In this document: positions 32,898 through 62,136 of the stretch, piece after piece
How positions within the stretch are numbered: position 1 is the stretch's first letter
Layout: each line of letters starts with the position of its first letter
Program-made: the position numbers and the translations under genes
Assembly: GCF_017068395.1 (NCBI RefSeq)
Contig: NZ_CP070619.1
Span: 5,270,001 to 5,334,000, forward strand
DNA length: 64,000 nt
From: Rhodococcus pseudokoreensis
Lineage (GTDB): Bacteria > Actinomycetota > Actinomycetes > Mycobacteriales > Mycobacteriaceae
Reading direction: 5' to 3'
Notes under the pieces: model-generated
Told to the model about the DNA's origin: nothing
The model's database searches: none
The model's input: the letters and a program-made list of their open reading frames with translations, nothing else

Positions 32898-33881
32898 TCA
32901 CATGCGGCGCAGGCGTTGGTGCGCGTCGGTGTATTCGCGATCGAGGCGTTCGACGATCTGCGCTGCGGGGACGATTGCGTCGACGGCGCCGATGCCCTGT
33001 CCGGCGCCCCAGATGTCGCGCCAGGGCTTGGCTTCCGTTTTCGTGCTCGTGTCGGCGTCTTCGCCGACGCCGAAGTCCATGGCGGTCGGGTCGGAGACGG
33101 CGAGGTTGTTGGGGTCGAGTCCGGCGGCTTCGATGCTGCCGCGCAGGTAGTTGCCGTGTACTCCGGTGAAGAGGTTGGAGTACACGATGTCGGATGCGGT
33201 GGAGTCGACGGTCATCTGCTTGTAGCGCTGGTCGGCGGTGGCTTCTTCGGTGGCGATGAACGCGGAGCCGATGTAGGCGAGGTCGGCGCCTGCGGCCTGG
33301 GCGGCGAGGACGGAGCGGCCGTGGGCGATGGAGCCGGACAGCAGGACCGGTCCGTCGAACCATTCGCGGATTTCCTGGAGGAGGGCGAAGGGGGAGAGGG
33401 TGCCTGCGTGTCCGCCGGCGCCTGCGGCGACGGCGATGAGTCCGTCGGCGCCCTTCTCGACGGCCTTTTTGGCGAACTTGTTGTTGATGACGTCGTGGAG
33501 GACGATGCCGCCGTAGCTGTGGACGGCGTCGTTGACGTCGCTGCGGGCGCCGAGGGAGGTGATGACGATGGGGACCTGGAATTCGACGATGGTGGCGAGG
33601 TCTTCGTCGAGGCGGTCGTTGCTCTTGTGGACGATGAGGTTGACGGCGTAGGGGGCGGAGGGTGTTTCGGGGTTGTTGGCGTCGTGTTTGGCGAGTTCTT
33701 CGGTGATGCGGGTGAGCCATTCGCGCAGCACGGGTTGGGGGCGGGCGTTGAGGGAGGGGAAGGATCCGACGACGCCGGAGGTGGATTGGGCGATGACCAG
33801 GTCGGGGCCGGAGACGATGAACATCGGCGATGCCACGACGGGCAGGCGGAGCCGGTCTTGCAGGATCGGGGGCAAGGTCAC
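32898..33881 (-). CDS. Nitronate monooxygenase-like flavoprotein (block A)
   Basis: The 327-residue protein has the TIM-barrel FMN fold of the 2-nitropropane dioxygenase family: LRLPVVASPMFIVSGPDL at the start, VNLIVHKSN, GADGLIAVAAGAGGHAGTLSP with the family's GGH-type motif, and GSGIAHG-like GSIAHGRSVLAAQAAGADLAYIGSAFIAT near the FMN phosphate. It starts at GTG 33881 with GGAG eight bases upstream. It is the last gene of block A. In mycobacterial steroid degradation a relative (IpdC) acts on CoA thioesters, so a redox step on an acyl-CoA is as likely here as true nitronate oxidation. Confidence 0.83.
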   Translation of the reverse strand: MTLPPILQDRLRLPVVASPMFIVSGPDLVIAQSTSGVVGSFPSLNARPQPVLREWLTRITEELAKHDANNPETPSAPYAVNLIVHKSNDRLDEDLATIVEFQVPIVITSLGARSDVNDAVHSYGGIVLHDVINNKFAKKAVEKGADGLIAVAAGAGGHAGTLSPFALLQEIREWFDGPVLLSGSIAHGRSVLAAQAAGADLAYIGSAFIATEEATADQRYKQMTVDSTASDIVYSNLFTGVHGNYLRGSIEAAGLDPNNLAVSDPTAMDFGVGEDADTSTKTEAKPWRDIWGAGQGIGAVDAIVPAAQIVERLDREYTDAHQRLRRM

Positions 33882-33966
33882 AGGGAATTCTCCTCGAGTG
33901 TCGGGAAACGCGGGGCGACGCCGTGCCATCGAGGACGGCGCCGCCCCGGATGCGGTGCGTTGCCGG

Positions 33967-35124
33967 TTACGCCGGGAGAGATTCGAAGATGGTGGCATTG
34001 GCCATGCCACCGGCCTCGCACATGGTTTGCAACCCGTATCGCAGGCCCTCGGTGTGCAGGTGGTGCACGAGAGTGGTGGCAAGCCGGGCACCGGAACCGC
34101 CGAGGGGATGCCCGAGGGCGATGGCGCCGCCGAGGGGGTTGACCCGTTCGCGGCGGGCGCCGGTCGCGGCGAGCCAGGCCTCGACCACGCTGGCGAAGGC
34201 CTCGTTGACCTCGAACGCGTCGATGTCGTCGAGATCCAGTCCGGCCATCTCCAGCACCTTCCGCGTTGCCGGGATGGGTCCGGCCAGCATGGCGATCGGG
34301 TCGTCGCCGACGGCGGTGGCGGTGTGTACGCGGGCCAGGGGAGTCAAGCCGAGTTGTCGTGCTCGCTCACTGGTGGTGACCAGCAGTGCCGCGGCGCCGT
34401 CGGAGATCTGGGAAGCGTTGCCTGCGGTGATGCGGCCGTCGGCGGCGAAGGCGGGTGAGAGGGAGCCGAGTGCGTCGAGGGTGGAGTCCCGCCGGATGCC
34501 CTCGTCGACCGTGAGGGTGGTGCCGTCGGGCAGCCCGACCGGGGTGATCTGTTTGACGAATCGGCCGTCGTCGACGGCCTGTCCTGCGCGACGGTGTGAT
34601 TCGAGGCTGTACTCGTCGAGTCGCGCGCGGCTGAGGTCGTACCGTTTCGCCAGGATTTCGGCGCCCGTGCCCTGATTGAAATCGACGTTGTCGTAGCGAC
34701 GGGACACCGCGGGGCCGAACGGGACGCCCGGTCCGGCCTTCCGGGCCGAGCCCATCGGCACCCGGGACATCGATTCGACGCCGCCTGCGACGACCACGTC
34801 GGCGTGGCCCGCGATGACCGAGGCGGCCGCGAAGTGGATCGCCTGCTGGCTCGAGCCGCACTGACGGTCGACGGTGGTGCCAGGAACCTGTTCCGGCCAG
34901 CCGGCGGCGAGGACCGCGCTGCGGGCGATGTTCGCCGATTGTTCCCCGACCTGGCCCACACATCCCCACACGACGTCGTCGACGGCAGCGACGTCGAGTC
35001 CGGTGCGTTCGGCCAGCGCGGTGAGCACCATCGCGGACAGGTCCACGGGATGGATGTCCTTCAAGGCGCCGTTGCGGCGTCCGACGGGTGTGCGTACGGC
35101 TTCGACGATGACTGCGTCACGCAT
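33967..35124 (-). CDS. Acetyl-CoA C-acyltransferase (thiolase), block A
   Basis: The 385-residue thiolase has nucleophile Cys89 (TTVDRQCGSSQQ), His339 in GGAIALGHPLGGSG and the second catalytic Cys369 in LQTMCEAGGMANA. All three catalytic residues of degradative thiolases are present, so it should cleave a 3-ketoacyl-CoA with CoA. It is clearly paralogous to the block C thiolase at 55670-56803: both start MRDAVIV and have VDDVVWGCVGQVG and EVNEAFASV. It lies between SDR and nitronate-monooxygenase-like genes, consistent with the last step of a beta-oxidation-like route. Confidence 0.92.
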   Translation of the reverse strand: MRDAVIVEAVRTPVGRRNGALKDIHPVDLSAMVLTALAERTGLDVAAVDDVVWGCVGQVGEQSANIARSAVLAAGWPEQVPGTTVDRQCGSSQQAIHFAAASVIAGHADVVVAGGVESMSRVPMGSARKAGPGVPFGPAVSRRYDNVDFNQGTGAEILAKRYDLSRARLDEYSLESHRRAGQAVDDGRFVKQITPVGLPDGTTLTVDEGIRRDSTLDALGSLSPAFAADGRITAGNASQISDGAAALLVTTSERARQLGLTPLARVHTATAVGDDPIAMLAGPIPATRKVLEMAGLDLDDIDAFEVNEAFASVVEAWLAATGARRERVNPLGGAIALGHPLGGSGARLATTLVHHLHTEGLRYGLQTMCEAGGMANATIFESLPA

Positions 35125-35178
35125 GACAGTTGCCCTTACTGGATGGTCGGTGGGTGGTCGGGCTCGCCGGACCGGTGT

Positions 35179-35949
35179 TCATCGCGGAGCCATTCGGATG
35201 GCGCCGTCGAGGCGAATGGTTTCTCCGTTGAGCATGCCGTTTTCGACGATGTGCGCGGCCAGGGCGGCGAACTCGGAGGGGTCGCCCAGCCTGCGCGGAT
35301 GCGGCACCGAGGCCGCGAGCGACGCCCGGACATCGTCGCGTGCCCTCGCCAGCAGGGGAGTGTCGAACGTGCCGGGGGCGATGGTGCAGACCCGAATTCC
35401 CACGCCGGCGAGGTCCCGTGCCGCGGGCAACGTCATCCCCACGACGGCGGCCTTGGCTGCGGCGTAGTTGATCTGGCCGATCTGTCCCTCGAACGCGGCG
35501 ACGGATGCGGTGAGTACGCACACGCCGCGGTCACCGTCGAGAGGCTCGTTGCCTGCCATGGCCTGGGCGGCGAACCGCAGTACGTTGAAACTGCCGATCA
35601 CGTTCAGCCGGATCACCGATTCGAACGGCTCGAGCTCGGCGGCCGTGCCCGACTTGTCCAGCACCCGCATGGGACGGCCACGTCCGGCGCAGTGGACGAC
35701 GGCCCGCAACGGTCCCTGCTCGGTGGCGGCGGCGAAGGCCGCGGACACGTTGTCGGCGTCTGCGACATCTGCCGCGACGAATCGGGCACCGGGGCCGAGT
35801 TCTTCGGCGCGGGCCGCACCGTCCGAGGTGGGCAGATCGACCAGTGTGACGGTGGCGCCGCCGTCGATCAGGCGGGTGGCGGTGGCCAGTCCGAGACCGG
35901 AGGCTCCGCCGGTGACGACGGCATTGATTCCCTTGATGTCCACGGTCAC
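35179..35949 (-). CDS. SDR, 3-hydroxyacyl-CoA dehydrogenase (HSD10) type
   Basis: The 256-residue SDR has TGGASGLG (13-20), Asp38 (VDLP) for NAD+ preference, catalytic Ser149, Tyr162 and Lys166 (NYAAAK). The stretch AAFEGQIGQINYAAAKAAVVGMTLPAARDLAG and the C-terminal HPRRLGDPSEFAALAAHIVEN match type 2 3-hydroxyacyl-CoA dehydrogenases. It starts at GTG 35949, overlapping the acyl-CoA dehydrogenase stop by GTGA; a second GTG at 35943 is possible. It fits the hydroxyacyl-CoA oxidation step between the crotonase and the thiolase of block A. Confidence 0.86.
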   Translation of the reverse strand: MTVDIKGINAVVTGGASGLGLATATRLIDGGATVTLVDLPTSDGAARAEELGPGARFVAADVADADNVSAAFAAATEQGPLRAVVHCAGRGRPMRVLDKSGTAAELEPFESVIRLNVIGSFNVLRFAAQAMAGNEPLDGDRGVCVLTASVAAFEGQIGQINYAAAKAAVVGMTLPAARDLAGVGIRVCTIAPGTFDTPLLARARDDVRASLAASVPHPRRLGDPSEFAALAAHIVENGMLNGETIRLDGAIRMAPR

Positions 35950-37094
35950 AGGCCCAGGGATCGGGAGATGACGCTCTTCATCACTTCGCTGGTACCACCG
36001 AAGATTCGGGTGACCCGGGCGTCGGCGTAGAGCCGGGTGATCGGGTACTCGCGCATGTAGCCGTATCCGCCGTGCAGTTGCAGGCATCGATCGATCACCC
36101 GGGACTGCATCTCCGTGCAGAACAGCTTCACCTTCGCGGCGTCGGCCACCGACAGGGTGCCGTCGTCGAGGGCGACGAGCGCTCGGTCGACGAGGGCCTG
36201 CCCGGCTTCGAGTTCGGTCGCGCAGTCGGCGAGGACGAATTTGGTGTTCTGGAAGTCGGCGACCCGTTGCCCGAAGACCTTGCGGTCCTTGACGTAGTCG
36301 GAGCCGAGGTTCAGCGCGGCCGTCGCCGTGGCCTGTGCGTTCACGGCGATCGTCAGCCGCTCCTGGGGCAGGTTGCGGGCGAGCATCGAGAAGGCGGCGC
36401 CTTCCTCGCCCAGCAGGTTGCGGGCAGGGACCCGGACGTTGTCGAACAGCAGTTCGGCCGTGTCCTGGGCTTTGAGGCCGAGCTTGTCGAGGTTGCGGCC
36501 GCGGGTGAAACCGTGCATACCGGCCTCGACCACGAGCAGCGACAGCCCGTCACGCCGGTTGGCGACGTCGCGGTTCGTGCGGGCCACGACGATGATCAGG
36601 TCGGCGTTGATGCCGCCGGTGATGAACGTCTTGGCTCCGTTGAGGATCCAGTCGTCACCGTCTCGCACGGCGCTGGTTGCCATGCCGGCCAGATCCGATC
36701 CGGTGCCGGGTTCAGTCATCGCGATCGACGACACCAGGGTGCCGTCCGCGAATCCCGGGAACCACCTCGACTTCTGATCGGCGTCGGCGTATTCGAAGAA
36801 GTACGGAAGCACGGTGCTGAGGTGGACCTGCAGGCCGCCGAGTGTGGCTGCGGCGTATCCGATTTCCTCGATGACGATCGCGTTGAACAGGAAACTGTCG
36901 ATTCCGCCGCCGCCGAACTCCTCGGGTACCTGGAGGCCGTTGATCCCGATCTCGGCGGTCTTGGTGAACAGCTCGCGGGGGACGAGCCCGGCGGCCTCCC
37001 ACTCCCCGATGTGGGGCACGACCTCCTTGCCGATGAACTGCCTCACCGTATCCCGGAAGGCGTCGTGGTCGGAGTCGAAGATGTTGCGTTGCAT
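35946..37094 (-). CDS. Acyl-CoA dehydrogenase, block A
   Basis: The 382-residue flavoenzyme shows the family segments SIAMTEPGTGSDLAG (123-137), NGAKTFITGGINADLIIVVA and [28 protein letters not shown]. At the usual catalytic position, just before GT, it has Gly instead of Glu; instead Glu245 in NLPQERL sits where isovaleryl-CoA and long-chain dehydrogenases keep their base. This suggests a branched or otherwise substituted acyl-CoA. It is paralogous to the block C enzyme at 56833-57978. It is upstream of and coupled to the SDR gene and 63 bp downstream of a CoA-transferase gene. Confidence 0.92.
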   Translation of the reverse strand: MQRNIFDSDHDAFRDTVRQFIGKEVVPHIGEWEAAGLVPRELFTKTAEIGINGLQVPEEFGGGGIDSFLFNAIVIEEIGYAAATLGGLQVHLSTVLPYFFEYADADQKSRWFPGFADGTLVSSIAMTEPGTGSDLAGMATSAVRDGDDWILNGAKTFITGGINADLIIVVARTNRDVANRRDGLSLLVVEAGMHGFTRGRNLDKLGLKAQDTAELLFDNVRVPARNLLGEEGAAFSMLARNLPQERLTIAVNAQATATAALNLGSDYVKDRKVFGQRVADFQNTKFVLADCATELEAGQALVDRALVALDDGTLSVADAAKVKLFCTEMQSRVIDRCLQLHGGYGYMREYPITRLYADARVTRIFGGTSEVMKSVISRSLGL

Positions 37095-37157
37095 GGTTGT
37101 ACCAATCCTTTGCAGTGATCGAGCGGGCGCGCATCCAGGCGCCGCGAGTGCCGTGTT

Positions 37158-38342
37158 CTATCGGCAGTGGACGACGCCCGCGTCGGTGAGGGCGTCGATG
37201 GTGGAGGTGGCGTAGCCGAATTCGGTGAGCACTTCGGTGGTGTGCTGGCCCAGCGCGGGAGCGCCGGCGGACGAGAATCGGGGGACGCTGCCGAGGTGCC
37301 AGGGCGAGCCGAGCGTGGTGTGCTCGACGCCGTCCGGGTCGATGACGTCGATGAAGATGCCGGTTGCCTCGACATCGGGGTTCTTGCGGACCTCGCCGTA
37401 GGAGCTGATCCGGCCCGCGACCACGCCGTTCGGGGTCAGCAGTGCCATCGCGTCGTCGCTGGTCATCTCGGCGAACTCGGCTCGCAATGCGGTCAGGAGC
37501 GCCGGGCGGTGGTGGACCCGGCTTTCGTTGGTGGCGAATCGTGGGTCGGAGGCGAGTTCGGGTCGGCCGAGCAGGGTGCAGAGCCGGGCGAAATGTACCA
37601 CCGAATAGGCGGATACGACGATGGCGCCGTCCCGGGTGGGCATCACGTCCGCGGCGGGCGCCACGGTGGGCTGTCCGTTGCCCTTGCGCATCGGTTCGTT
37701 GCCGGTGAGCAGGTACTCGCCCCAGTTCGGTCCCTGCAGGTGCACGGCGACCTCGAGGAGGGAGGTCTCCACGGTGTCGCCGTCACCCGTGCGGAGGCGT
37801 CGGATGTACGCGCCGAGGATGGCCTGGGCGAACACGTGCCCGGCAGCGGCGTCGACGGCGGGGAAGCCGACACGCTGCGGCTCTCCGTCCGCCTCGCCGG
37901 TGACCCACATGATGCCGCTCTCGGCCTGCGCCGCGATGTCGAGTCCTGGACGGTACTTCGATGGTCCCTGCAAGCCGAATCCGCTCACGGTGGCGTAGAT
38001 GATGCTCGGATGCGCGGTGCGGACGTCCTCGGCTCCGAGTCCGAACGATTCCATCACTCCGGGGCGCAGGTTCTGCACGACGATGTCGGCCGACGCGATC
38101 AGATCCCGGGCGATCTGCTGTCCGCGCTCGTCTTTCAGGTCGAGTGCGATGCAGCGTTTGTTGCGGTTGTAGTTCCGCAGGATCGCTTCGCCGTAGGTGC
38201 CGATCAGTCGCGACGATTCGCCGTGCACCGGTTCGACTTTGATCACGTCGGCGCCGAGGTCCACCAGAATCTGGGTGGCCGCCGGGGCGGCGATGAACTG
38301 TCCGAAATCGACGACGCGAACGCCGTTCAACGGTCCGGTCAT
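37158..38342 (-). CDS. Family III CoA-transferase, block A
   Basis: This 394-residue CaiB/BaiF protein has RVVDFGQFIAAPAATQILVDLGADVIKVE at its start (split over 9-37), NKRCIALDLKDERG, and Asp135 in RPGLDIAAQAESG as the expected catalytic aspartate. It should activate the imported acid by taking CoA from a donor such as succinyl-CoA or acetyl-CoA. Its ATG overlaps the stop of the upstream MFS gene (ATGA), tying activation to import. It is clearly related to the enzymes at 44467-45684 and 54297-55523, less to the one at 181-1377. Confidence 0.9.
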   Translation of the reverse strand: MTGPLNGVRVVDFGQFIAAPAATQILVDLGADVIKVEPVHGESSRLIGTYGEAILRNYNRNKRCIALDLKDERGQQIARDLIASADIVVQNLRPGVMESFGLGAEDVRTAHPSIIYATVSGFGLQGPSKYRPGLDIAAQAESGIMWVTGEADGEPQRVGFPAVDAAAGHVFAQAILGAYIRRLRTGDGDTVETSLLEVAVHLQGPNWGEYLLTGNEPMRKGNGQPTVAPAADVMPTRDGAIVVSAYSVVHFARLCTLLGRPELASDPRFATNESRVHHRPALLTALRAEFAEMTSDDAMALLTPNGVVAGRISSYGEVRKNPDVEATGIFIDVIDPDGVEHTTLGSPWHLGSVPRFSSAGAPALGQHTTEVLTEFGYATSTIDALTDAGVVHCR

Positions 38343-39640
38343 GCTGCATTCTCCTTCGTTCGAGCGCTGAGCTTGGCGGCGTCGTGTTCGGGACGCACCA
38401 GGAAGGTGGCGGCGGCGCCGCCGAGGGTCATGAGGATTCCGGTCAGTGCGAAGCCGTGGCCGTAGCCGGTGATCTTGTCGGAGGCGTTGCCGACGAAATA
38501 GCCGAGTACGAGGGGCGCGAGCACCCCGGCCATGCTGTAGAACGCCACCAGGAATCCGAGGATCGGTCCGCGCTTGCTCGGGTGCACGATGTCGGCGATC
38601 GCGGTGAACGCAACCGCGTAGGCAGCGGTGTTGAGGGAGAACGCCAGCGTGATGAACACCATCTGCGGCAGGCCGGCGGACAACAGCGTGAATGCGACCA
38701 TCGAGACGCCGGCCGCGACGATCAGCCCGCCCGCCAGAAATCCCCGGGAGACCCTCCGGGACACGCCCCGGACGGTGAGCCAGTTCGACAGAAACCCGGC
38801 GCCGATCGCGCCTGCAGCGGCAAAAGCGTACGGCAGCATGATCAGCCGGCCTGCCGTGATCGTGTCGTACCCCAATCCGTCGGAGAGATAGACAGGGAGC
38901 CAGGCCACTTTCAACGTCGTCGACCAGTACGAGAAGAAGGTCAGGAGGGCGATGCCGACGACGGTTCCGGTGGTCAGCAGCGTTCGATACGACGCGTCGG
39001 CCAGTTCCACGGCGCCGTCGGCTGCGGCGGTGTGCGCGGGTGCATTCTTACCGAAGATCAACCAGACCACGGCCCAGGCCCCGCCCAGGACGATGAGAAC
39101 GCCGAACGCGGCGTGCCACGACCAGGTGACGATCACCCAGGTGAGGACCGGCGCTGCGAGGAGCGGCCCCACCGAGGCGCCCGCGGTCACGATCCCGCCC
39201 GGCAGGGCCCGCTTCTCCGGCGGGAACCAGGAGTGCACCGAGTGCGTGGCCAGCGCGTACGCCGGGCCCTCGGCGAAGCCGAGGACGATCCGGCAGGCGA
39301 GCAGGACGCCGAAGCTGACCGGTCCGAGCAGGGGCACCATCGTCACGATCCAGATCAGCATCAGCACTGCCAGCAGCCAGCGCACCCCGATACGTGAGGA
39401 GAGGGCGCCGAGCACGATCGCGCCGACGGCGAACAGCCAGAAGAAGGCGCTCTGGACGAGTCCGAACTGCTGCGGGGTGATGCCCAGATCCTTCTGGATG
39501 TGGAGGCCCGCGAAGCCGAGCACGGCCTTGTCGGCGAAGTTGAGTACCAGGAACGCAAACAGCAGTGTGGTGACGAGCCAGGCGCGCGACCGTGACGGCG
39601 GTGCGACGGCCGCGGTGTTCCGCGTGAGTGTTTCAGACAT
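38339..39640 (-). CDS. ACS-type MFS organic acid importer, block A
   Basis: The 433-residue, twelve-helix transporter begins TM1 with LNFADKAVLGFAG and has FFWLFAVGAIVLGALSSRIGVRWLLA, GFAEGPAYALATHSVHSWFPPEKRALPGGIV and VIVTWSWHAAFGVL. This pattern is shared with the importers at 43115 and 52746 and belongs to the anion:cation symporter (ACS) family, which includes aromatic and aliphatic carboxylate porters. It is cotranscribed with and overlaps the CoA-transferase gene. Substrate unknown. Confidence 0.86.
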   Translation of the reverse strand: MSETLTRNTAAVAPPSRSRAWLVTTLLFAFLVLNFADKAVLGFAGLHIQKDLGITPQQFGLVQSAFFWLFAVGAIVLGALSSRIGVRWLLAVLMLIWIVTMVPLLGPVSFGVLLACRIVLGFAEGPAYALATHSVHSWFPPEKRALPGGIVTAGASVGPLLAAPVLTWVIVTWSWHAAFGVLIVLGGAWAVVWLIFGKNAPAHTAAADGAVELADASYRTLLTTGTVVGIALLTFFSYWSTTLKVAWLPVYLSDGLGYDTITAGRLIMLPYAFAAAGAIGAGFLSNWLTVRGVSRRVSRGFLAGGLIVAAGVSMVAFTLLSAGLPQMVFITLAFSLNTAAYAVAFTAIADIVHPSKRGPILGFLVAFYSMAGVLAPLVLGYFVGNASDKITGYGHGFALTGILMTLGGAAATFLVRPEHDAAKLSARTKENAA

Positions 39641-39682
39641 GGGCGGGCTCCGAACGGGCGAGGTGGACAGGGTGGCGTCGGG

Positions 39683-40477
39683 TCAGCGGCCGGTGAACGA
39701 CGGCACGCGTTTGTTCAGAAATGCGTCGGCGGCCTCGCGCGCGTCGCCGGAGTGGAAGCACTGCACCATTCGGTCCACCTCGGCGAGCAGATAATCGCTC
39801 AGCGATGTGGTGGACGCCTGGAGCAGGTTCTGCTTCATCGCCCGCAGAGCGAGGGGAGCCGACGACGCGAGCCGGTGGGCCAGGTCCCGGGCTTCCGCGT
39901 GCAGCGACTCCGTGCCGGTCACCGTGGTGACCAACCCGAGATCCAGTGCGTCCTGTGCCGTGAGTTTGCCTGGCGTCAAGAACAATTCGCGGGCCTTGGC
40001 CCCACCGAGCAGCTTGGTGATCAGCCAGATACCGCCGAGATCACCGGAGAGGGCGGCGTTCACGAAGGCCGTGTTGAACACGGCACGATCGGAGGCGATC
40101 CGGAAGTCGGCGGCGGCCGCAAGCGACAACCCTGCTCCGGCGCAGGCGCCGTCGATCGCCGCGATGGTCACCTGCGGTAGATGGTGGAACCGGTGCAGGG
40201 TGGAGCTGACCTGCCGCAGTCGCGCGGTGTCGGCAGCGATCGAGTCGCCGCGCAAGGTGCGGGCACCGGCGGGCGCGGCCAGATCGGCGCCGACGCTGAA
40301 GTCCGTGCCCTGCCCCGCCAGGATCACCACGCGTACGTCGGGTGCGCAGGACAGGTCGGTGATCGCGGAGCCGAGTTCGTCGAAGACGTTGTGGGACACA
40401 GCGTTGCGCCGACCGGGGTTGTCGATCACCACGTGTGCGACGGCATCGTCGACGGTGACGTGGACACAACCGGTCAT
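39683..40477 (-). CDS. Enoyl-CoA hydratase/isomerase, block A
   Basis: The 264-residue crotonase has the first oxyanion-hole segment GQGTDFSVGADLA, the second in IAAIDGACAGAGLSLAAAADFRIAS and the typical C-terminal LALRAMKQNL helix. In the catalytic glutamate region it reads FVNAALSGDLGGIWLITKLLGG, so the canonical glutamates are replaced by Ser/Asp; the precise reaction (hydration, isomerisation or other) is therefore uncertain. It is the first gene of the block A operon downstream of the promoter at 40524-40552. Confidence 0.88.
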   Translation of the reverse strand: MTGCVHVTVDDAVAHVVIDNPGRRNAVSHNVFDELGSAITDLSCAPDVRVVILAGQGTDFSVGADLAAPAGARTLRGDSIAADTARLRQVSSTLHRFHHLPQVTIAAIDGACAGAGLSLAAAADFRIASDRAVFNTAFVNAALSGDLGGIWLITKLLGGAKARELFLTPGKLTAQDALDLGLVTTVTGTESLHAEARDLAHRLASSAPLALRAMKQNLLQASTTSLSDYLLAEVDRMVQCFHSGDAREAADAFLNKRVPSFTGR

Positions 40478-40523
40478 GAAGTCCTCCTCGAATGGGTTGC
40501 GCCTGTGAGGTGGCGCACTTCCA

Positions 40524-40552
40524 TTGAAGGTGTGAGGAATGACTACGTCAAA
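40524..40552 (-). promoter_or_regulatory. Putative promoter of the block A operon
   Basis: On the minus strand TTGACG (40552-40547), a 17-bp spacer and TTCAAT (40529-40524) lie about 47 bp before the crotonase start. Just upstream, CACTC-N5-GGGTG (around 40561-40575) is an imperfect dyad suited to a LysR protein. Confidence 0.5.
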
Positions 40553-40584
40553 GTCCAGAAATCACCCGAATTGAGTGTAATTGC

Positions 40585-41598
40585 CTATAGGTTGGGGCGG
40601 ACCTCGGTGTCGACGCGGCTGCGATCGCGGATTCGGTGATCGGCCGCCAGCGCCGCCATCGCGGCCGCCTCCACCAACGAGTGACCCTCGCTCCGGTGGC
40701 CGGCAATGGCACGGACCCAGGCACGGAGGGACCGCTTGGAGTAATTCAGGAACTCGGTGGTCGCCGGGGTGATTCGGCCCTCCCGATACACCACTTCGAG
40801 GGGGCGGGCGAGCCCCGGCACCAGTTCGCGCACGACCCCGCCGCGGTGTCGCGCGTCGAGGCCGATTCGCAGCGGGACGATGGCCGCTCCGCCCCCGGCC
40901 AGCACGATCGGCAGGACGGCCCCGCGCTGGGGTACTTCCACCACGATGCGCGGTTCGACTCCGTGTGCACGCAGTGACTTCTCGATGTAATCGCGGGTCG
41001 CGGTGCCGTGTTCACCCATCACGAATGGAACCTGGGACAGGGACTCGATCGGAACGAGGTCCGGCCAGTACGCCTCCGTTCCGGGTGGGCAGACCAGGAC
41101 GAACTTCTGCTCGACCAGATGCTCGCTGATCAGATCCTCGCCCGGCGGTGGCGACGCGAGGAACCCGACCTCGCAGGAGCCGGATCGGACGAGGGTGACC
41201 ACGTCCGAAGCGTCGTCGCGCTCCTCGATGTGGAACCGGACGTCGGGGAAACGCGTGCGAAACCTCGCCACCCACACCGACAGCGGGTCCATCGACATGT
41301 CCGACAGGGTGGCGATGTCGACCCGTCCGCCGCGCACCTGCCCGACGCTTCGGACGGCGTTCTCCGCGGCCTCCGTCTCCCGCAGGATCATGCGAGCCGG
41401 TCCGATCAGCGCCTCCCCGGCGGGAGCGAGGACGAGGCCGCGACCCACTCGGTGGAACAGTTCGGTGCCCAGATCCTTCTCGAGTTTGCGCACCGCCTGA
41501 GACAGCGACGGCTGTGCAACCCGCAGTGCCGCCGCTGCACGGTTGACGCCGCCGTGATCGACCACGGCGAGGAAATACTCCATCTGACGCAGGTCCAT
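40585..41598 (-). CDS. LysR-type regulator, block A
   Basis: The 337-residue regulator opens with DLRQMEYFLAVVDHGGVNRAAAALRVAQPSLSQAVRKLEKDLG (split over 2-43), a LysR winged HTH, followed by an effector-binding domain (VDIATLSDMSMDPL). It is a clear paralogue of the block B regulator at 46927-47916, whose start is nearly the same. It is encoded upstream of the block A operon on the same strand, separated by a 107-bp gap with its own promoter. It likely controls the block A genes. Confidence 0.88.
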   Translation of the reverse strand: MDLRQMEYFLAVVDHGGVNRAAAALRVAQPSLSQAVRKLEKDLGTELFHRVGRGLVLAPAGEALIGPARMILRETEAAENAVRSVGQVRGGRVDIATLSDMSMDPLSVWVARFRTRFPDVRFHIEERDDASDVVTLVRSGSCEVGFLASPPPGEDLISEHLVEQKFVLVCPPGTEAYWPDLVPIESLSQVPFVMGEHGTATRDYIEKSLRAHGVEPRIVVEVPQRGAVLPIVLAGGGAAIVPLRIGLDARHRGGVVRELVPGLARPLEVVYREGRITPATTEFLNYSKRSLRAWVRAIAGHRSEGHSLVEAAAMAALAADHRIRDRSRVDTEVRPNL

Positions 41599-44461: not shown

Positions 44462-44466
44462 GTGTG

Positions 44467-52745: not shown

Positions 52746-54140
52746 ATGAGCACAGCGGAGACCAAGGCTGCGGTAGTCGGGGCCGCAGGGAGCGGATCCG
52801 GGGCCGGTGCCCGCCGGGTGGCGCGCACCGCCTGGGGCATCACGTTCATGGTGATGCTGTTCCAGATGATCAATTACGCAGACAAAGCCGTATTGGGCAT
52901 CGTCGCGCGGCCCCTGTCAGAGGATCTCGGCCTCTCACACGCCGATATCGGACTTCTCGGCAGCGCCTTCTTCATCCTGTTCTCGGTGACGGGACTGATC
53001 GGGGGCTTCGTCGCCGACCGCATCAAGATCGTGTGGATGCTGCTGGGCATGGTGGTGTTGTGGTCGGTGCTGCAGGTTCCGATCGTGTTGATGGGCACCT
53101 TCGGGGCGCTGTTGGTCTGCCGCATTCTGCTCGGCGCCGCCGAGGGTCCGGCGGCCTCACTCAACAACGTCGCGGTCTTCGGATGGTTCCCGAAGGACAA
53201 GCGCGCACTGCCTGCTGCGATCGTCACCACCGGTGGCTCGCTGGCGAAGGTCATGCTGGCCCCTGCCCTGGCGATCGTCGTCGCGGCATGCGGGTGGAAG
53301 GCAGCCTTTCTCGCTCTGGGTGCGCTAGGTCTGGCGTGGTCGGTGGTGTGGCTGGTCGTCGGCAAGGACGGGCCGTATTCGGTCAGCCGGGCCCGCGAGC
53401 GCGCGCAGGCGTCGAGTGGGACCGGTAAGGTCGCGCGGGTCGCATTCTGGCGCATCGCTATTCGACCGACGTTCTGGGGCGGTTCGCTCGGTATGCTCGC
53501 CATTTATGGCTTCGTGGCGGTGGTTCTCACCTGGTTGCCCTCGTACTTCGAGCAGGGTCTGGGATTCAGCCGACTGAACTCCGGGTTCCTGTTCGCACTC
53601 CCCAGTATCACCGGAGTCGGTGCTCTGCTCTTTTCCTCCATTGTCTCGGACCGGCTGATCCGCCGCGGTCGCTCGGTTCGGGCCGCCCGCGGGGGCGTCG
53701 CAGTCGTCGCGTTCGTACTCTGCGGTGTCATGCTGTTGGTCCTGCCCTACGTGACCAATAGCTGGACCGCGGTGTTTCTCGTGGTCACCGCCTACGGTGT
53801 CGGTCTGGCCACCTTCCCGCTGATGCAGATCGCCGTCAGCCACATCTGCCCGGAGCGACAGGTGGCCTCGACCGTCGGCGTGTCCGTAGCCATCTACCAG
53901 GCATCGGGATTGCTCGCTCCGTGGCTGGCCGGCCGCATCATCGACGCCGCTCCCACCCTCGCCGAGGGGTACGCGACCGCATTCCAGACAGTCGGAATCA
54001 CCGCGATCGTCGGTGCCGTGCTCATCGCACTGACCGTCGACCCCGAGCGGGACCGGGCTCGGATCGCCGCCCTCGACGCACTGACCCATGCAGACGGATC
54101 CGTCGACGACGAGGTGCTTCTGTCCGGTGGGGAACGGTAG
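52746..54140 (+). CDS. ACS-type MFS organic acid importer, block C
   Basis: The 464-residue transporter has INYADKAVLGIVARPL in TM1, LLGSAFFILFSVTGLIGGFVADRIKIVWML, LGAAEGPAASLNNVAVFGWFPKDKRALPAAIV and an alternating helix pattern for twelve spans. AAGGAG precedes the ATG. It is the third ACS-type importer in the region. It probably brings in the acid that the next gene product converts to a CoA ester. Confidence 0.86.
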   Translation: MSTAETKAAVVGAAGSGSGAGARRVARTAWGITFMVMLFQMINYADKAVLGIVARPLSEDLGLSHADIGLLGSAFFILFSVTGLIGGFVADRIKIVWMLLGMVVLWSVLQVPIVLMGTFGALLVCRILLGAAEGPAASLNNVAVFGWFPKDKRALPAAIVTTGGSLAKVMLAPALAIVVAACGWKAAFLALGALGLAWSVVWLVVGKDGPYSVSRARERAQASSGTGKVARVAFWRIAIRPTFWGGSLGMLAIYGFVAVVLTWLPSYFEQGLGFSRLNSGFLFALPSITGVGALLFSSIVSDRLIRRGRSVRAARGGVAVVAFVLCGVMLLVLPYVTNSWTAVFLVVTAYGVGLATFPLMQIAVSHICPERQVASTVGVSVAIYQASGLLAPWLAGRIIDAAPTLAEGYATAFQTVGITAIVGAVLIALTVDPERDRARIAALDALTHADGSVDDEVLLSGGER

Positions 54141-54296: not shown

Positions 54297-55523
54297 ATGG
54301 AGATCCGCCCGACGCGGCCCGCGACCCAGGGAGGGCACCCCCTCCAGGGCATCAAGGTGATCGACTTCGGTCAGTACATCGCCGCACCGGCTGCGACGGC
54401 CGTGCTCGCCGAACTGGGCGCCGAGGTCGTCAAGGTCGAACCGCTGCAGGGCGACCAGGCCCGCCGGGTCGGGGCGTTCGGGGACGCGATGATCCGCGCG
54501 TACAACCGAGGCAAGAGGTCGCTCGCCATCGACCTGCGCGACGCACGCGGACGGACACTTGCTCTGCAGTTGGTGGCCGATGCGGATGTGGTGGTGCAGA
54601 ACATGAGACCCGGTGCTATGGAGCGGCTGGGTCTGGGGCCGGAGGCCGTGCGAGAGGTGAACCCGCGGGCGATCTACGCGTCGGTCACCGGGTTCGGCAT
54701 GCACGGTCCGTCCCGTAATCGGGCGGGACTCGACATCGCGGCACAGGCGGAAGGCGGGATCATGTCGGTGACCGGCGAAGCGGACGGCGATCCCCTTCGG
54801 GTGGGGCTTCCGGTCGTGGATGCCTCGACGGCAAGCTCGCTCGCTCAGGCCATCCTGGCCGCACTGTTTCGTCGAGAACGCACCGGGGAAGGCGCCGAGA
54901 TCGAAATCTCGCTGCTGGAGGTGGCGATTCATCTTCAGGCAGCCAACTGGGAGGAATACCTCGGCACCGGTCGCGAACCGATGCGGATGGGCAACGGGCA
55001 GCCGACGGTGGCGCCCGCGGCCGATGTGATCCGGACGGTCGACGGGCACATCGTGCTGTCCGCGTACACGGATGAGCACTGGAGCACCCTCTGCCGCCTC
55101 ATCGATCGCACCGATCTGCTCACCGATCCACGCTTCGACTCGAATCCGTCTCGGGTCCGAAATCGTTCGACGCTGTTGCAGATTCTCTCCGACGCGCTGT
55201 CCGCCATGAGCACCGAGAGTTGTGTGAAGTGGCTGTCGGACAACGGCATCGTCGTGGGTGCGGTTCGCGGGTACGCGCAGGTTCTCGAATCCGGCGACGT
55301 GCACGCGAGTGGCATCTTCCGCACGGACGGCACCGGGAAATACGTCGGACTGCCGTACAGCATCGGCGGGTTGCCGCGTTCGGTCTCGGATCCCGCGCCC
55401 GAATTGGGCGAGCATTCCGGTGCCGTGCTGAGGGACGCCGGCGTGGATAGTGCCGAGATCGATGCGCTGATCGAGGCCGGGATCGTCGCACAACCGGATG
55501 CCGTCCGGGAAGCCACAGTCTGA
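54297..55523 (+). CDS. Family III CoA-transferase, block C
   Basis: The 408-residue protein has IKVIDFGQYIAAPAATAVLAELGAEVVKVE (split over 19-48), YNRGKRSLAIDL and Asp146 in RAGLDIAAQAEGG as the expected catalytic aspartate. I used ATG 54297, with GAGGAG upstream; the frame is open to 54144 but the region has no ribosome site. It closely resembles the block A and B enzymes. A 156-bp gap separates it from the importer gene; no gene or clear terminator was seen in it. Confidence 0.9.
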   Translation: MEIRPTRPATQGGHPLQGIKVIDFGQYIAAPAATAVLAELGAEVVKVEPLQGDQARRVGAFGDAMIRAYNRGKRSLAIDLRDARGRTLALQLVADADVVVQNMRPGAMERLGLGPEAVREVNPRAIYASVTGFGMHGPSRNRAGLDIAAQAEGGIMSVTGEADGDPLRVGLPVVDASTASSLAQAILAALFRRERTGEGAEIEISLLEVAIHLQAANWEEYLGTGREPMRMGNGQPTVAPAADVIRTVDGHIVLSAYTDEHWSTLCRLIDRTDLLTDPRFDSNPSRVRNRSTLLQILSDALSAMSTESCVKWLSDNGIVVGAVRGYAQVLESGDVHASGIFRTDGTGKYVGLPYSIGGLPRSVSDPAPELGEHSGAVLRDAGVDSAEIDALIEAGIVAQPDAVREATV

Positions 55524-55669
55524 CGGGTCGGTCCGCGGCCCCTTGCGACGGGCCGTCCGAGTACCCATAGCCCCATCCGATCGCACCGTTCGTATTCGCG
55601 TCTTTGTGCGCGACGCCGCGCGCTGATTGATTTGAGTGTGAATTGAACCGAGGCGCGAAGGAGCCACAA

Positions 55670-56803
55670 ATGCGGGATGCAGTCATCGTCGATGCGGTAC
55701 GAACTCCGGTCGGCCGACGCAACGGATCCTTGGCGGACATTCATCCGGCGGACCTGTCGGCGCACGTGCTGAAGGCGCTGGCCGAGCGGACCGGCATCGA
55801 TCCGGCAGTGGTCGACGACGTCGTGTGGGGCTGTGTGGGACAGGTCGGGGATCAGGCGAACAACATCGGCCGAAGCGGGGTGCTGGCCGCGGGCTGGCCC
55901 ACGTCCGTGCCGGCGACGACCGTGGATCGGCAATGCGGTTCGAGTCAGCAGGCGTTGCACTTCGCGGCCGCCGGGGTCATTGCCGGTCAGTACGACGTGG
56001 CGGTCGCAGGCGGTGTGGAGTCGATGTCGCGCGTACCGATGGGATCGAGTCGCCAATCCGGGCAACCGTTCGGCCGCACCGTGCTGGACCGGTTCGGTGT
56101 CGAGACGTTCAATCAGGGCGTCGGGGCGGAGATGATCGCCGAGAAGTGGGCCTTCTCCCGCCGCCAACTCGACGAATTTGCCGTTGGCTCCCACGAGAAG
56201 GCCGCCGCCGCCGTCGATTCGGGCGCGTTGACAGCCCAGATTGCGTCGCTGCCCGGTGTGCTGGACACGGACGAGGGAATTCGGCGCGGGACCACCGTCG
56301 ACACATTGGCCGGGCTGAAGACGTCCTTCAAGGAGGACGGCGTCATTCACGCCGGAAACGCCTCGCAGATCTCCGACGGCTCCGGCGCGCTGCTGGTGAC
56401 CACGAGTGAGAAGGCCCGCCAACTCGGTCTGACCCCGATCGCCCGAATCCACACCGCAGTGATGGCCGGCGACGATCCGGTGATCATGCTGACCGGGCCC
56501 ATCCCGGCGACCGCGAAGGCGCTCGAACGATCCGGCCTGTCCATCTCCGACATCGGCGCGTTCGAGGTCAACGAGGCGTTCGCTTCGGTTCCACTGGCCT
56601 GGCTCGCGGAGACGGGAGCCGATCCGGCTCTCGTGAATCCCCTGGGCGGCGCGATCGCGGTCGGCCATCCGCTCGGCGGTTCCGGCGCGGTGCTCATGAC
56701 ACGGCTCGTGCACCACATGCGGGACAACGGCATTCGATACGGCCTGCAGACGATGTGCGAGGGCGGCGGCATGGCCAACGCCACGATCCTCGAACTGCTC
56801 TGA
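55670..56803 (+). CDS. Acetyl-CoA C-acyltransferase (thiolase), block C
   Basis: The 377-residue thiolase has Cys89 (TTVDRQCGSSQQ), His333 (GGAIAVGHPLGGSG) and Cys363 (LQTMCEGGGMANA). It is strikingly similar to the block A thiolase throughout, with the main difference an eight-residue shortening in the middle loop region (about 140-230). ATG 55670 has AAGGAG eight bases upstream; an ATG 27 bases earlier is less likely. It is followed after 29 bp by the acyl-CoA dehydrogenase gene. Thiolytic cleavage of a 3-ketoacyl-CoA is expected. Confidence 0.92.
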   Translation: MRDAVIVDAVRTPVGRRNGSLADIHPADLSAHVLKALAERTGIDPAVVDDVVWGCVGQVGDQANNIGRSGVLAAGWPTSVPATTVDRQCGSSQQALHFAAAGVIAGQYDVAVAGGVESMSRVPMGSSRQSGQPFGRTVLDRFGVETFNQGVGAEMIAEKWAFSRRQLDEFAVGSHEKAAAAVDSGALTAQIASLPGVLDTDEGIRRGTTVDTLAGLKTSFKEDGVIHAGNASQISDGSGALLVTTSEKARQLGLTPIARIHTAVMAGDDPVIMLTGPIPATAKALERSGLSISDIGAFEVNEAFASVPLAWLAETGADPALVNPLGGAIAVGHPLGGSGAVLMTRLVHHMRDNGIRYGLQTMCEGGGMANATILELL

Positions 56804-56832
56804 ACGACCACTGAACAGAAGGATATTTCGAC

Positions 56833-58985
<2,153 letters not shown>

Positions 58986-59006
58986 TCGAGGACCGCTTCG
59001 TGCGAC

Positions 59007-59041
59007 GGCGCCGGGAGGAGCCAGGCCCCTCCCGGCGCCGG
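59007..59041 (+). terminator. Strong hairpin inside block C
   Basis: A perfect 13-bp stem (CGGCGCCGGGAGG at 59007-59019 with its complement at 59029-59041) and 9-base loop follow the second flavoprotein gene and precede the crotonase genes in the same direction. It may terminate or attenuate transcription at this point. Confidence 0.65.
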
Positions 59042-59064
59042 TTACCGATTCTGAAAGGAACGCG

Positions 59065-59739
59065 ATGAGCGCATCATCTCAACCCGAGGGCACAGACGTC
59101 GTGCGCGTCCGCCGCCACGGGAGTGGCCGTATAGAAATCGAATTGAACCGTCCCGGCCGCAAGAACGCCCTGACGATCCCGATGGTGACCCAACTCGCGA
59201 ACGCTCTCGGTGACGCCCAGGACGACGACGCCGTGACTGCGGTGCTGCTGCACGGCGCAGGCGGATGCTTCAGCTCCGGACTGGATCTCGCCGAGGTCCG
59301 CCCGGGTGAGCCTGCGATCTCGGCGGCGATTGCCGAACTGCATGCGCGTCTGGCGGCACTCGAGAAGCCCTTGGTCGGGGCGCTGGAACGAGCCGCGGTC
59401 AACGGCGCTGCGGCGATCGCGCTGGCGTGTGACCTGCTGGTGGTGGGCGAGAAGTCATTCCTCCTGGTCGGCGAGGCGGAGATGGGTGTCGCGGCTCCGA
59501 ACAACCTGCGATGGTTGCTCGCGAAATATGGCGTGAATCAGGCCCTGCAACTCACGTTGGCGTGTGAACGTCAATACGGCCCGGACCTCCTGCGCCGCGG
59601 AATCGCGTACGCGATGGAGCCGGACGAGCACGTCCTTTCCAGGGCGACGGAACTCGCCGAGAAGATGGCGGCCTACCCCGACGGCGGTGGAACCGCCATG
59701 AAGCACGCGATTCTGGCGCACGACACCCAGCACGCCTGA
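59065..59739 (+). CDS. Short crotonase-family protein (block C)
   Basis: The 224-residue protein has crotonase features: [22 protein letters not shown], the oxyanion segment [15 protein letters not shown], and [20 protein letters not shown]. It is some 30 residues shorter than typical enoyl-CoA hydratases, and where the catalytic glutamates normally lie it has [20 protein letters not shown], so hydratase activity is uncertain. ATG 59065 has AAAGGA upstream. It is followed by a second, more typical crotonase gene. Confidence 0.82.
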
Positions 59740-59801
59740 GGTCGGGCACCAGCGCACTCCAACACACAGCCGGCCCCGTGCCGCACGACACGAAGGTACA
59801 C

Positions 59802-60539
59802 ATGACCATTCGGACCGAAACCGTATCCGAGGGCGTCCGCCTGCTGACGATGGACCGCCCGCACCGCCGCAATGCTCTCGATTCCACCGACTATCAGGCT
59901 CTCGCGGCGGCAATCGAAGACGCAGACAGCGATCCCGATGTGCGCGCAGTGGTCGTCACCGGCGCCGGCGGTGTCTTCACCAGCGGGAACGACATCGAGA
60001 ACTTCCAGGAGTCGCGGACCGAGGGCGGCGCCGCAGGGATGGTTCTCCTCCGTGCACTGGTGTGTGCGCGCAAGCCGATCATCGCCGCGGTCGAGGGATT
60101 CGCGATCGGCATCGGAACGACGATGCTGCTGCACTGCGATTTCGCCTTCGCCGGCAAGGCCACCCGATTCCGGCTCCCCTTCGTTCCGTTGGGGCTGTGT
60201 CCCGAGGGCGGGTCGAGTTACCTGCTTCCACAGGTCGCGGGTCTGAAGCGGGCCACCGAGTTGCTGATGCTGGGCGATCAGTTCGATGCCGATGACGCGG
60301 CGGAAGCCGGTGTGATCAACCGTGTCGTCCCCGATGGCGACGCCCTCGAGGTCGCGCTCGAGCGGGCTGCCGGACTCGCCGCGGCGCCCGCCGAATCCGT
60401 GGAACTGACGAAGATGCTGCTGCGGCGGCCGATCCGAGATGCGGTGCTCGAGACGCTGGACGTCGAGGCCGTACACTTCGGGAGGCGGCGGCAATCCGAG
60501 GAAGCGCAAGCGGCTTTCGCCGGATTCATGCGAAGGTGA
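59802..60539 (+). CDS. Enoyl-CoA hydratase/isomerase (block C)
   Basis: The 245-residue crotonase has [35 protein letters not shown] (first oxyanion hole) and [23 protein letters not shown] (second), then [25 protein letters not shown] with a Glu-Gly pair in the catalytic region, as in enoyl-CoA isomerases and some hydratases. ATG 59802 has AAGG about six bases upstream; an in-frame GTG at 59778 is possible. It would supply the hydration or double-bond shift that the block C dehydrogenase-thiolase pair needs. Confidence 0.87.
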
Positions 60540-60582
60540 ATGCCGGTGAGGGTGGTCCGCATCGACGAAAGGTGGCCCGCAC

Positions 60583-62136
60583 ATGAACGGTGCGCAGTCC
60601 GTGATCCGCACGCTCGTCGACTCGGGGGTGGAGGTGTGTTTCGGTAACCCGGGAACATCCGAGATGCATTTCGTGGCCGCACTCGATTCGGTACCCGCGA
60701 TGCGGGGCATCCTGGGGCTTTTCGAAGGCGCCGTGACCGGTGCGGCGGACGGTTATGCGCGAATCGCGGGTAAGCCCGCAGCGACGCTGCTGCACCTCGG
60801 GCCGGGGATGGCCAACGGGTTGGCGAACCTGCACAACGCACGTCGCGCACACACGCCGATCGTGAACGTCGTCGGTGACCATGCCACGTACCATCATCGG
60901 CTCGACGCTCCCCTCGAATCGGACATCGATGCACTCGCGGGCTGGCTCGAGGGGTGGTCGCGCCGGGCGGTCGACACGGAATCGGCGGGCAAGGATGCGG
61001 CAGATGCCGTTGCTGCGGCGATGGATTCACCGGGGCGTTGTGCGACGCTGATCCTCCCCGCGGACGTGTCGTGGGGCGAGGGTGGTGTCTCCTCCCCGCC
61101 GGCAGCGCGCTCTGCGCGTCCGAGTGTCGCGTCCGGGACGGTGCGTGCGGTCGCGGCGGATGTCGTCGCGGACGGGCGCACCACGATACTGCTCGGTGGC
61201 GAGGCGTGCCGCGAGCGCGGGCTCCGGGCCGCCGCCAGGATCGCGGACGCAACGGGCGCAGAGGTTTTGGTCGAGACCTTCCCGGCCCGGCTCGAGCGAG
61301 GGGCCGGCCTGCCGGCGTTCGACAGATTGGGATATCTTGCCGAACAGGCCACCCGGCAACTCCAGAGCGCTGCCCGCCTGATCCTGGCGGGCGCAGTATC
61401 GCCGGTCTCGTTCTTCGCATATCCGGGCAGGCCCGGTGACCTGGTGCCCGCGGGTGTCACCGTCACGACCCTCGCGGAGGTCGGGGATGACGTGACGGGT
61501 GCCCTCGAGGCGGTTGCCGACGCGGTTGCGCCGGGAGCGGAGCCGACGGTGCGGGCGCCGCTTCGCCCACCGCTGCCGAGTGGTCCACTGAACGTCCGGA
61601 ACTGGGCGGACGTCATCGGCGCGCTGCTCCCCGACAACGCGATCATCTCGGATGAATCGAATACGTCCGGTGGTGGCCTCGCGGCGGCACTGTCCGGGGC
61701 ACCACGACACGACGTGCTGATGCTGACCGGCGGCGCGATCGGGCAGGGAATCCCCGTGGCCACCGGTGCCGCTGTCGCGGCGCCGCACCGCCCGGTCGTG
61801 AACCTGCAGGCCGACGGAAGCGCGATGTACACGATCAGCGCGTTGTGGACGCAGGCACGCGAGCAGCTCGACGTCACCACGGTCCTGTTGAACAATCGCG
61901 CGTACGCCATCCTGCGCATGGAACTGCAACGGGTCGGGGCGGAAGGCGCAGGCGCCGCCGCCAATTCGATGCTCGACCTGTCTGCGCCGAACATGGACTA
62001 CGTCAAGATCGCCGAAGGACTCGGCGTCCCGGCCTCGCGTGCTACCACCGCAGAGGAGTTGGCGGAGCAGTTCTCCGCCGCGCTCGCCGAGCCCGGCCCA
62101 CACCTCATCGAGGCCGTGATTCCGCCGCTGCTCTGA
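60583..62136 (+). CDS. ilvX: IlvX-like thiamine-diphosphate enzyme
   Basis: The 517-residue protein has the three-domain fold of acetolactate synthase/benzoylformate decarboxylase enzymes: an N-terminal pyrimidine-binding domain with the activating Glu48 (LFEGAVTGAADGYAR), a central domain, and a C-terminal domain with the ThDP motif at 410-438, which reads ADGSAMYT...NN instead of the usual GDGS. It begins NGAQSVIRTLVDSGVEVCFGNPGTSE, like mycobacterial IlvX, which lies in the cholesterol regulon and is not a proven acetohydroxyacid synthase. Decarboxylation or ligation of a 2-oxo acid is inferred; the substrate is unknown. GGTGG lies upstream of the ATG. Confidence 0.82.
   Translation: MNGAQSVIRTLVDSGVEVCFGNPGTSEMHFVAALDSVPAMRGILGLFEGAVTGAADGYARIAGKPAATLLHLGPGMANGLANLHNARRAHTPIVNVVGDHATYHHRLDAPLESDIDALAGWLEGWSRRAVDTESAGKDAADAVAAAMDSPGRCATLILPADVSWGEGGVSSPPAARSARPSVASGTVRAVAADVVADGRTTILLGGEACRERGLRAAARIADATGAEVLVETFPARLERGAGLPAFDRLGYLAEQATRQLQSAARLILAGAVSPVSFFAYPGRPGDLVPAGVTVTTLAEVGDDVTGALEAVADAVAPGAEPTVRAPLRPPLPSGPLNVRNWADVIGALLPDNAIISDESNTSGGGLAAALSGAPRHDVLMLTGGAIGQGIPVATGAAVAAPHRPVVNLQADGSAMYTISALWTQAREQLDVTTVLLNNRAYAILRMELQRVGAEGAGAAANSMLDLSAPNMDYVKIAEGLGVPASRATTAEELAEQFSAALAEPGPHLIEAVIPPLL

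Follow-up and report, generated by a model that had tools for sequence, protein, structure and literature searches.

A distinct subfamily of family III CoA-transferases in candidate acid-degradation modules of a Rhodococcus genome

In anaerobic benzylsuccinate degradation (bbs), the described pathway enzymes are BbsEF, BbsG, BbsH, BbsCD and BbsAB (PMC10818641). In the isoprene catabolism of Variovorax and Rhodococcus, a predicted CoA-transferase, IsoG, passes a branched unsaturated acid to beta-oxidation (PMC9804861). The breakdown of steroid rings needs IpdC, which is 30% identical to FabK, and FabK-like flavoenzymes occur in actinobacterial beta-oxidation (PMC5380842). Of the two phenylacetate crotonases, PaaF is described as having a pair of catalytic glutamates; PaaG, in that paper's wording, has only one catalytic glutamate, as in isomerases (PMC4498308). 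Here we analyze a 64,000-nucleotide stretch of Rhodococcus pseudokoreensis (C6:5270001-5334000, in a genome of 9.87 Mb and 6 contigs; hereafter “the window”), which holds three gene blocks, A, B and C, each built around a major facilitator superfamily (MFS) importer, a family III coenzyme A (CoA) transferase and an acyl-CoA dehydrogenase.

An original prediction for this DNA had joined the three blocks into one system for benzylsuccinate-like or substituted dicarboxylic acids. Our analysis argues that the region probably consists of separable, mobile modules, primed by CoA-transferases, that would import acids for beta-oxidation, with A and B related to each other and C independent. The parts are of known kinds; what marks them out is the distinct CoA-transferase subfamily and the recurrent pairing of A with B. 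The shared content of the blocks, including their LysR genes, is as had been predicted, at the coordinates given below. The recurring order of importer, CoA-transferase and dehydrogenase holds in A and B but not in C, where a thiolase intervenes between CoA-transferase and dehydrogenase. The claim of reused parts is likewise borne out for A and C (thiolases 68% and dehydrogenases 66% identical) but not for the dehydrogenase of B, which is not of the A/C type and has only 31-32% identity to the other two. The family assignments support the proposal that acids are taken up, activated by CoA transfer and beta-oxidized; we made them with Pfam and NCBIfam on gene calls from a script trained on the codon usage of the window itself, so that start positions are approximate. 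The closest named locus, in Rhodococcus koreensis DSM 44498 (98% in the block A CoA-transferase), agrees with the actinobacterial host that had been supposed.

The CoA-transferase subfamily and its neighborhoods

The CoA-transferases of A (37158..38342, minus strand), B (44467..45684, plus strand) and C (54297..55523, plus strand, within a longer frame from 54144) are mutually 50-55% identical. The A protein has 33 matches in its own genome at E<=1e-40, itself included, and its next matches are at 73% (5.83 Mb), 55% (C) and 50% (B), with the other 29 at <=40%. Because this subfamily stands apart from the remaining 29 matches, the reuse of parts is more than chance would give; three of its four members fall inside 18.4 kb. 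At 181-2885 of the window, another family III CoA-transferase precedes a gene with a carboxyl-transferase domain; this CoA-transferase shares only 35-36% identity with those of A, B and C. Local triplication of one block was considered and rejected, as the nearest paralogues of A are at 5.83 Mb (CoA-transferase 73%, dehydrogenase 77%) and not in B or C.

Genome-wide there are 61 matches to PF02515, the family III CoA-transferase domain, and fewer genes than that, since several matches share one long open frame. Of the 58 matches on C6, the interval 5.0-5.9 Mb contains 26, where 6 would be expected (Poisson P ~1e-9); none of 2000 uniform simulations produced a 0.8-Mb stretch with as many as 26. 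The window itself holds 4 matches against 0.43 expected; the densest 64 kb on C6 holds 9. That densest cluster, at ~102-163 kb, has several of its matches in one frame of 770-860 amino acids, which suggests fused double CoA-transferases. Family III CoA-transferases abound in large Rhodococcus genomes: PF02515 is present in all 28 genus-sampled genomes, with 1 to at least 48 matches each. The crowding in 5.0-5.9 Mb would fit the idea that unrelated operons had gathered in a CoA-transferase-rich catabolic island, their substrates unrelated and their proximity incidental, and the location of A’s closest relative at 5.83 Mb fits that explanation too, as do the four genomes, named below, where B stands apart from any A operon.

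The neighborhoods of related genes bear on this alternative. With the A CoA-transferase as query, 15 loci were found. Six (L005, L006, L007, L010, L013, L014), in Rhodococcus, Gordonia and Antrihabitans, carry a core operon in the order LysR, MFS importer, CoA-transferase, acyl-CoA dehydrogenase, short-chain dehydrogenase/reductase (SDR), hydratase and thiolase. The genome of the window also has this core operon, at ~5.829-5.836 Mb (L073), ~524 kb from block A, and it is the closest relative of block A. Six other loci (L001, the R. koreensis record; L002; L003; L008, the R. wratislaviensis record; L011; L012) have the A-type order with an isomerase-like crotonase, and the remaining three (L004, L009, L015) have neither. 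The core hydratase gene occurs in all six core loci and in two of the six A-type loci, both from Nocardioides; block A of the window has none.

We examined eight genomes in which the block B dehydrogenase (B.ACAD) is matched at >=82%: the genome containing the window (G000), R. koreensis G203, G195, G023, G204, G201, G175 and Nocardioides albus L011. Four of them (G000, G203, G023, L011) have an A-type operon as the divergent neighbor of B. The genes for the B importer and the A LysR regulator then point away from each other, the gap between the matches being 246 bp in L008 and 192 bp in L011, a spacing that would allow joint regulation of A and B. The divergent pair, which extends to Nocardioides, and the closeness of three of the four subfamily members both argue against the incidental gathering of unrelated operons, an explanation that we regard as unlikely.

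Block C behaves differently. In R. koreensis G203, A and B are present and C is absent beside them; B and a DUF1254 gene are followed by genes colinear with those of the window’s genome from 5.350 Mb onward, past C. In G195, A is absent (DUF202a, then DUF389, are found), and directly after B come C’s CoA-transferase, thiolase, dehydrogenase, second nitronate monooxygenase (NMO)-like enzyme (C.NMO2), both crotonases, thiamine pyrophosphate (TPP) enzyme and quinone-oxidoreductase-like gene (QOR), continuing with a double acyl-CoA dehydrogenase, an MFS gene, a FadB-like gene, a small protein and a LysR gene. C.NMO1, the C importer and the acyl-CoA ligase described below had no match in the G195 stretch. 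Among 201 family-sampled genomes, 25 had a match to the TPP enzyme. Its surroundings were fetched for 18 of the 24 genomes other than G000; one of these 18 has the C CoA-transferase there, and five have the TPP gene paired with the crotonase. By these arrangements, C is a separate, composite module. A check of the neighborhoods bears out the original prediction in part: A-type and core operons are conserved and A stands beside B in four of the eight genomes examined, while C is separable from A. The claim that all three blocks form one system is not supported: C is absent beside A and B in G203, and B and C are contiguous without A in G195.

Under the strict thresholds of the class and order samples, where the best 4-6 candidates per genome were scored, two of these genes were rare. 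Of 394 class-sampled genomes, one contained the block A crotonase (A.ECH) and one contained B.ACAD; of 298 order-sampled genomes, one contained B.ACAD. Each time this was the genome of the window. Within the genus sample, B.ACAD occurs in 9 of 28 genomes, 7 of them at >=83%. On a plasmid of Rhodococcus sp. DMU1, an A-type dehydrogenase (87%) is preceded by LysR and crotonase genes (L063:11437-15149); a plasmid search with the B CoA-transferase gave relatives under 60% identity.

Several of these neighborhoods weigh against the view of A and B as related modules. A-type operons are shortened in three of six loci, after the CoA-transferase in L002 and after the dehydrogenase in L003 and L008. 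In four of the eight genomes B is not accompanied by an A operon: none was found in the stretches fetched from G195, G201 and G175, and in G204 only a 58-amino-acid fragment of the A isomerase gene stands beside B (L079:11008-11208). The fragment is a sign of a former A operon there. On the DMU1 plasmid, the 641 bases between crotonase and dehydrogenase leave no room for an importer or a CoA-transferase.

Gene content and predicted active sites

Block A occupies 32898-41598 on the minus strand. It begins with a LysR regulator (40585..41598; PF00126, PF03466), the crotonase A.ECH (39683..40477; PF00378), an MFS importer (38339..39640; PF07690) and the CoA-transferase (PF02515). A dehydrogenase (A.ACAD, 35946..37094; PF00441, PF02770, PF02771), an SDR predicted to be a 3-hydroxyacyl-CoA dehydrogenase (35179..35949; PF00106), a thiolase (33967..35124; PF00108, PF02803) and an NMO/FabK-like flavin mononucleotide (FMN) enzyme follow; the last has an uncertain start (32898..33881; PF03060; TIGR03151 88 bits, under cut-off). 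Two DUF202 genes and one MarR gene separate block A from block B, which runs on the plus strand (43115-47916) from an MFS importer (43115..44461; PF07690) through the CoA-transferase (PF02515) and B.ACAD (45681..46874; PF00441 and partners) to a LysR regulator (46927..47916; PF00126, PF03466).

Block C, on the plus strand from 51626 to 62136 and beyond, is adjoined by two minus-strand LysR genes (49709..50614 and 50607..51518; PF00126, PF03466). It comprises C.NMO1 (51626..52729; PF03060), an MFS importer (52746..54140; PF07690), the CoA-transferase (PF02515), a thiolase (55670..56803; PF00108, PF02803), an acyl-CoA dehydrogenase (56833..57978; PF00441 and partners), C.NMO2 (57987..58985; PF03060), a short crotonase (C.ECH1, 59101..59739; PF00378), a second crotonase (C.ECH2, 59802..60539; PF00378) and the TPP enzyme (60583..62136; NF005760 769 bits against a cut-off of 363), which is separable from the other genes and is followed by QOR. 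The block continues past the window edge with a 769-amino-acid double acyl-CoA dehydrogenase, an AMP-binding ligase, an MFS gene, a FadB-like gene, a 246-amino-acid protein that no Pfam family matches and, last, a LysR gene. The ligase (PF00501, C6:5335789-5337426) is 1.8 kb beyond the edge, so the assertion that the cluster has no ligase is true within the window and fails just outside it.

Two features of block C stand apart. The TPP enzyme exceeds the cut-off of NF005760, an acetolactate synthase model, yet its closest solved structures are benzoylformate decarboxylases, and with the crotonase it recurs in four other genomes of the genus with no block C CoA-transferase nearby. The double dehydrogenase (C6:5333368-5335677), a fusion of two acyl-CoA dehydrogenase halves, spans the window end, precedes the ligase and is kept in G195 at 92%.

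The CoA-transferases of A, B and C score 392-396 bits on PF02515 (gathering threshold 23.3). On the succinate-glutarate CoA-transferase model NF052585 they reach 272, 241 and 249 bits, respectively, all under its equivalog cut-off of 750. Among structures, the A protein scores 212-220 bits with SUGCT and 4ed9, 119 and 97 bits with the two BbsEF chains, and <=107 bits with racemases. The Asp aligned with that of SUGCT, which we take to be the nucleophile, is kept in all three (Asp164 in A and B, Asp175 in the shorter C frame). Relatives of the B protein at E<=1e-90 numbered 744 of the 8000 candidates scored. The 120 listed bear generic names only; in 99 of them an R.G....D pattern is kept between residues 130 and 190, and 41 have the string GNGQ....PAADV exactly. 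From family and conserved Asp, the three proteins are predicted to be CoA-transferases of organic acids.

The importers A, B and C have TIGR00893, presumably an ACS family model, as their best NCBIfam match (138-181 bits against a cut-off of 395). A.ACAD aligns best with 2pg0, which we take to be a Geobacillus-type enzyme, and with mitochondrial long-chain acyl-CoA dehydrogenase (LCAD). The canonical Glu place holds Gly in A and Ala in C, with Glu at the LCAD position (Glu245 in A, Glu244 in C). At this position, assumed here to be that of the LCAD catalytic base, the LCAD chain 8w0z has Q, and 8w0t and A.ACAD have E. Among 120 listed relatives of A.ACAD, 103 have PQER and none has the canonical Glu. 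B.ACAD, with canonical Glu367, is not of the LCAD type; a glutaryl-CoA dehydrogenase identity was rejected for it, since the model gives 224 bits against a cut-off of 470. The block A SDR has as its 16 best chains (217-268 bits, the next at 106) mostly type II 3-hydroxyacyl-CoA dehydrogenases (HSD10), in line with the HSD10-type enzyme that had been named. The thiolases of A and C both exceed the TIGR01930 cut-off.

In A.ECH, Ser118 and Phe138 replace both hydratase Glu residues and Asp146 is retained. The same residues are found in three aligned A-type relatives (L011, L008, L003; the alignment covered these and left out L002 and L012), and both Glu are present in four aligned operon hydratases (L073, L011, L005, L013) and in the FadB-like protein. 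C.ECH2 has a PEGG motif, typical of enoyl-CoA isomerases, at the same place. Against structures, A.ECH scores 128 bits with 2ej5 and 116 bits with 6slb, whose Asp it retains; 6SLB is the Thermus PaaG, and D136 of a PaaG acts as a proton relay (PMC9493321). By its active-site residues, then, A.ECH is a predicted PaaG-type isomerase rather than a hydratase. The likeness is one of active site, as TIGR02280 does not file the protein as PaaG (139.6 bits against a cut-off of 345.15). C.NMO2 matches the PA1024 structures 6e2a and 2gjl at 470 bits, and PA1024 is termed an NADH:quinone oxidoreductase in a reference title within PMC11193025; nitronate detoxification was therefore rejected as its main role.

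These details also bear on the one-system model of benzylsuccinate-like or substituted dicarboxylic acids. In broad enzyme classes the blocks do agree with bbs (PMC10818641), the CoA-transferases match both BbsEF chains, and SUGCT, named for dicarboxylic acids, is among the best chains. The separability of C from A, the non-hydratase residues of the A crotonase, the single CoA-transferase and at most one SDR gene per block, the LCAD-type dehydrogenase and the lack of a pyruvate formate-lyase (PFL)-like protein all argue against it, and we judge it quite improbable; nothing was found in this analysis that points to aryl- or alkyl-succinate substrates, though dicarboxylic acids as such may still be among the substrates. 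That the family III proteins might be racemases or isomerases, with the acids activated by a ligase, is a very improbable alternative despite the racemase matches (107 bits) and the ligase 1.8 kb past the window, because the A protein scores twice as high with SUGCT and 4ed9, the SUGCT-aligned Asp is kept, no ligase is found among the A or B genes, and the ligase past the window had no match in the corresponding stretch of G195.

A predicted route and the surrounding genes

We return to the reading of A and B as related acid-importing modules, with C as an independent module. The reaction order, CoA donor, substrate and regulation proposed for them are drawn from the observed gene content, families, active-site letters and neighborhoods. 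An acid would enter as an anion through the MFS carrier and be activated by CoA transfer on the distinct family III CoA-transferase, the donor being an acyl-CoA, probably succinyl-CoA. The acyl-CoA dehydrogenase would start beta-oxidation. In block A, A.ECH would then shift the double bond, the SDR would oxidize and the thiolase would cleave; because block A is without its relatives’ hydratase, hydration would have to come from elsewhere in the genome, a candidate being the hydratase of the paralogous operon (C6:5834282-5835061). The FMN enzyme may reduce unsaturated intermediates or serve redox balance. The substrates of A and B are probably the same or related.

No NCBIfam model was over its cut-off for the CoA-transferases (7 each) or the dehydrogenases (22 each), nor any of the best 25 of 207 models for the A SDR, and hence family membership does not name a substrate. 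The co-occurrence of an isomerase, an LCAD-type dehydrogenase, an HSD10-type SDR and an FMN enzyme tentatively suggests unsaturated and/or methyl-branched acids; LCAD accepts branched substrates. A bolder and rather doubtful proposal is that A and B make up a so far undescribed pathway that moves horizontally. In it, both CoA-transferases of the new subfamily, each with an importer and a dehydrogenase of its own, would work on a single acid, unsaturated and methyl-branched (isoprenoid or aryl-alkenoic), and the PaaG-type isomerase would reposition the double bond for ligase-free beta-oxidation. Two points count against these assignments: C.ECH1 keeps one of the two hydratase Glu positions, and the choice of donor follows family resemblance, with no curated CoA-transferase model over cut-off. 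The sequence gap, the operons conserved across genera and the one recurrent partner module make a substrate for this subfamily a tractable target, and such a substrate would help explain which acids soil bacteria remove without the ATP cost of a ligase.

Elsewhere in the window, a glycine and serine breakdown cluster on the minus strand (2945-12989) encodes serine dehydratase, serine hydroxymethyltransferase and the glycine cleavage H, T and P proteins, and is followed on the plus strand by genes for a radical SAM protein and a protein resembling lipoamide dehydrogenase. A 404-amino-acid protein (17809-19023) has no Pfam match at E<=0.001. At 20576-24213, an IclR regulator, a 577-amino-acid FAD_binding_2 flavoprotein and an SDR form a separate small catabolic operon.

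Comparison with described systems

Narrow exact phrases plus wider queries of the open-licence PMC literature returned no title naming such an operon, and narrow exact phrases joining Rhodococcus with benzylsuccinate or with family III CoA-transferase gave no match there. Block A resembles the PaaF-PaaG step of phenylacetate degradation in its PaaG-type isomerase active site; it differs in having no ligase or epoxidase genes and in not reaching TIGR02280. From actinobacterial steroid ring catabolism the blocks are set apart by their CoA-transferases, of family III where IpdAB belongs to family I, and by their LysR genes and MFS importers. What they share with that system (IpdAB, IpdC, FadE32, EchA20) is a CoA-transferase and a FabK-like flavoenzyme within beta-oxidation (PMC5380842). 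The isoprene clusters of Gram-negatives also hold a LysR gene (PMC9804861), although the genes scanned at 31777-64000 include none of the monooxygenase, glutathione transferase and aldehyde dehydrogenase families, and the likeness to IsoG is one of description only.

With bbs, block A shares a general logic, as it unites CoA-transferase, acyl-CoA dehydrogenase, crotonase, SDR and thiolase classes. The original prediction had drawn this analogy, and it holds at the level of broad classes, beyond which the systems part. The bbs CoA-transferase has two subunits, BbsE and BbsF, whereas each of blocks A, B and C has one PF02515 gene; the bbs SDR is a heterotetramer of BbsC and BbsD, whereas A has one SDR gene and B and C have none. 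The crotonase of block A has Ser and Phe at the hydratase Glu places, in contrast to the hydratase BbsH. The bbs thiolase pairs BbsB with a Zn-finger partner, BbsA. The thiolases here look classical by their TIGR01930 scores, and no thiolase partner gene appeared in Pfam scans of the blocks, which included no search aimed at BbsA. The MFS importers likewise set the blocks apart. PF02901, the PFL-like family, has 0 matches in the whole genome (the control matched in 3 of 14 genomes), and because of this the genome has no benzylsuccinate synthase of the known kind, as had been expected. Judged by its genes and active-site residues, block A is thus predicted to work by the same general logic as bbs, as a system of its own rather than a bbs member.

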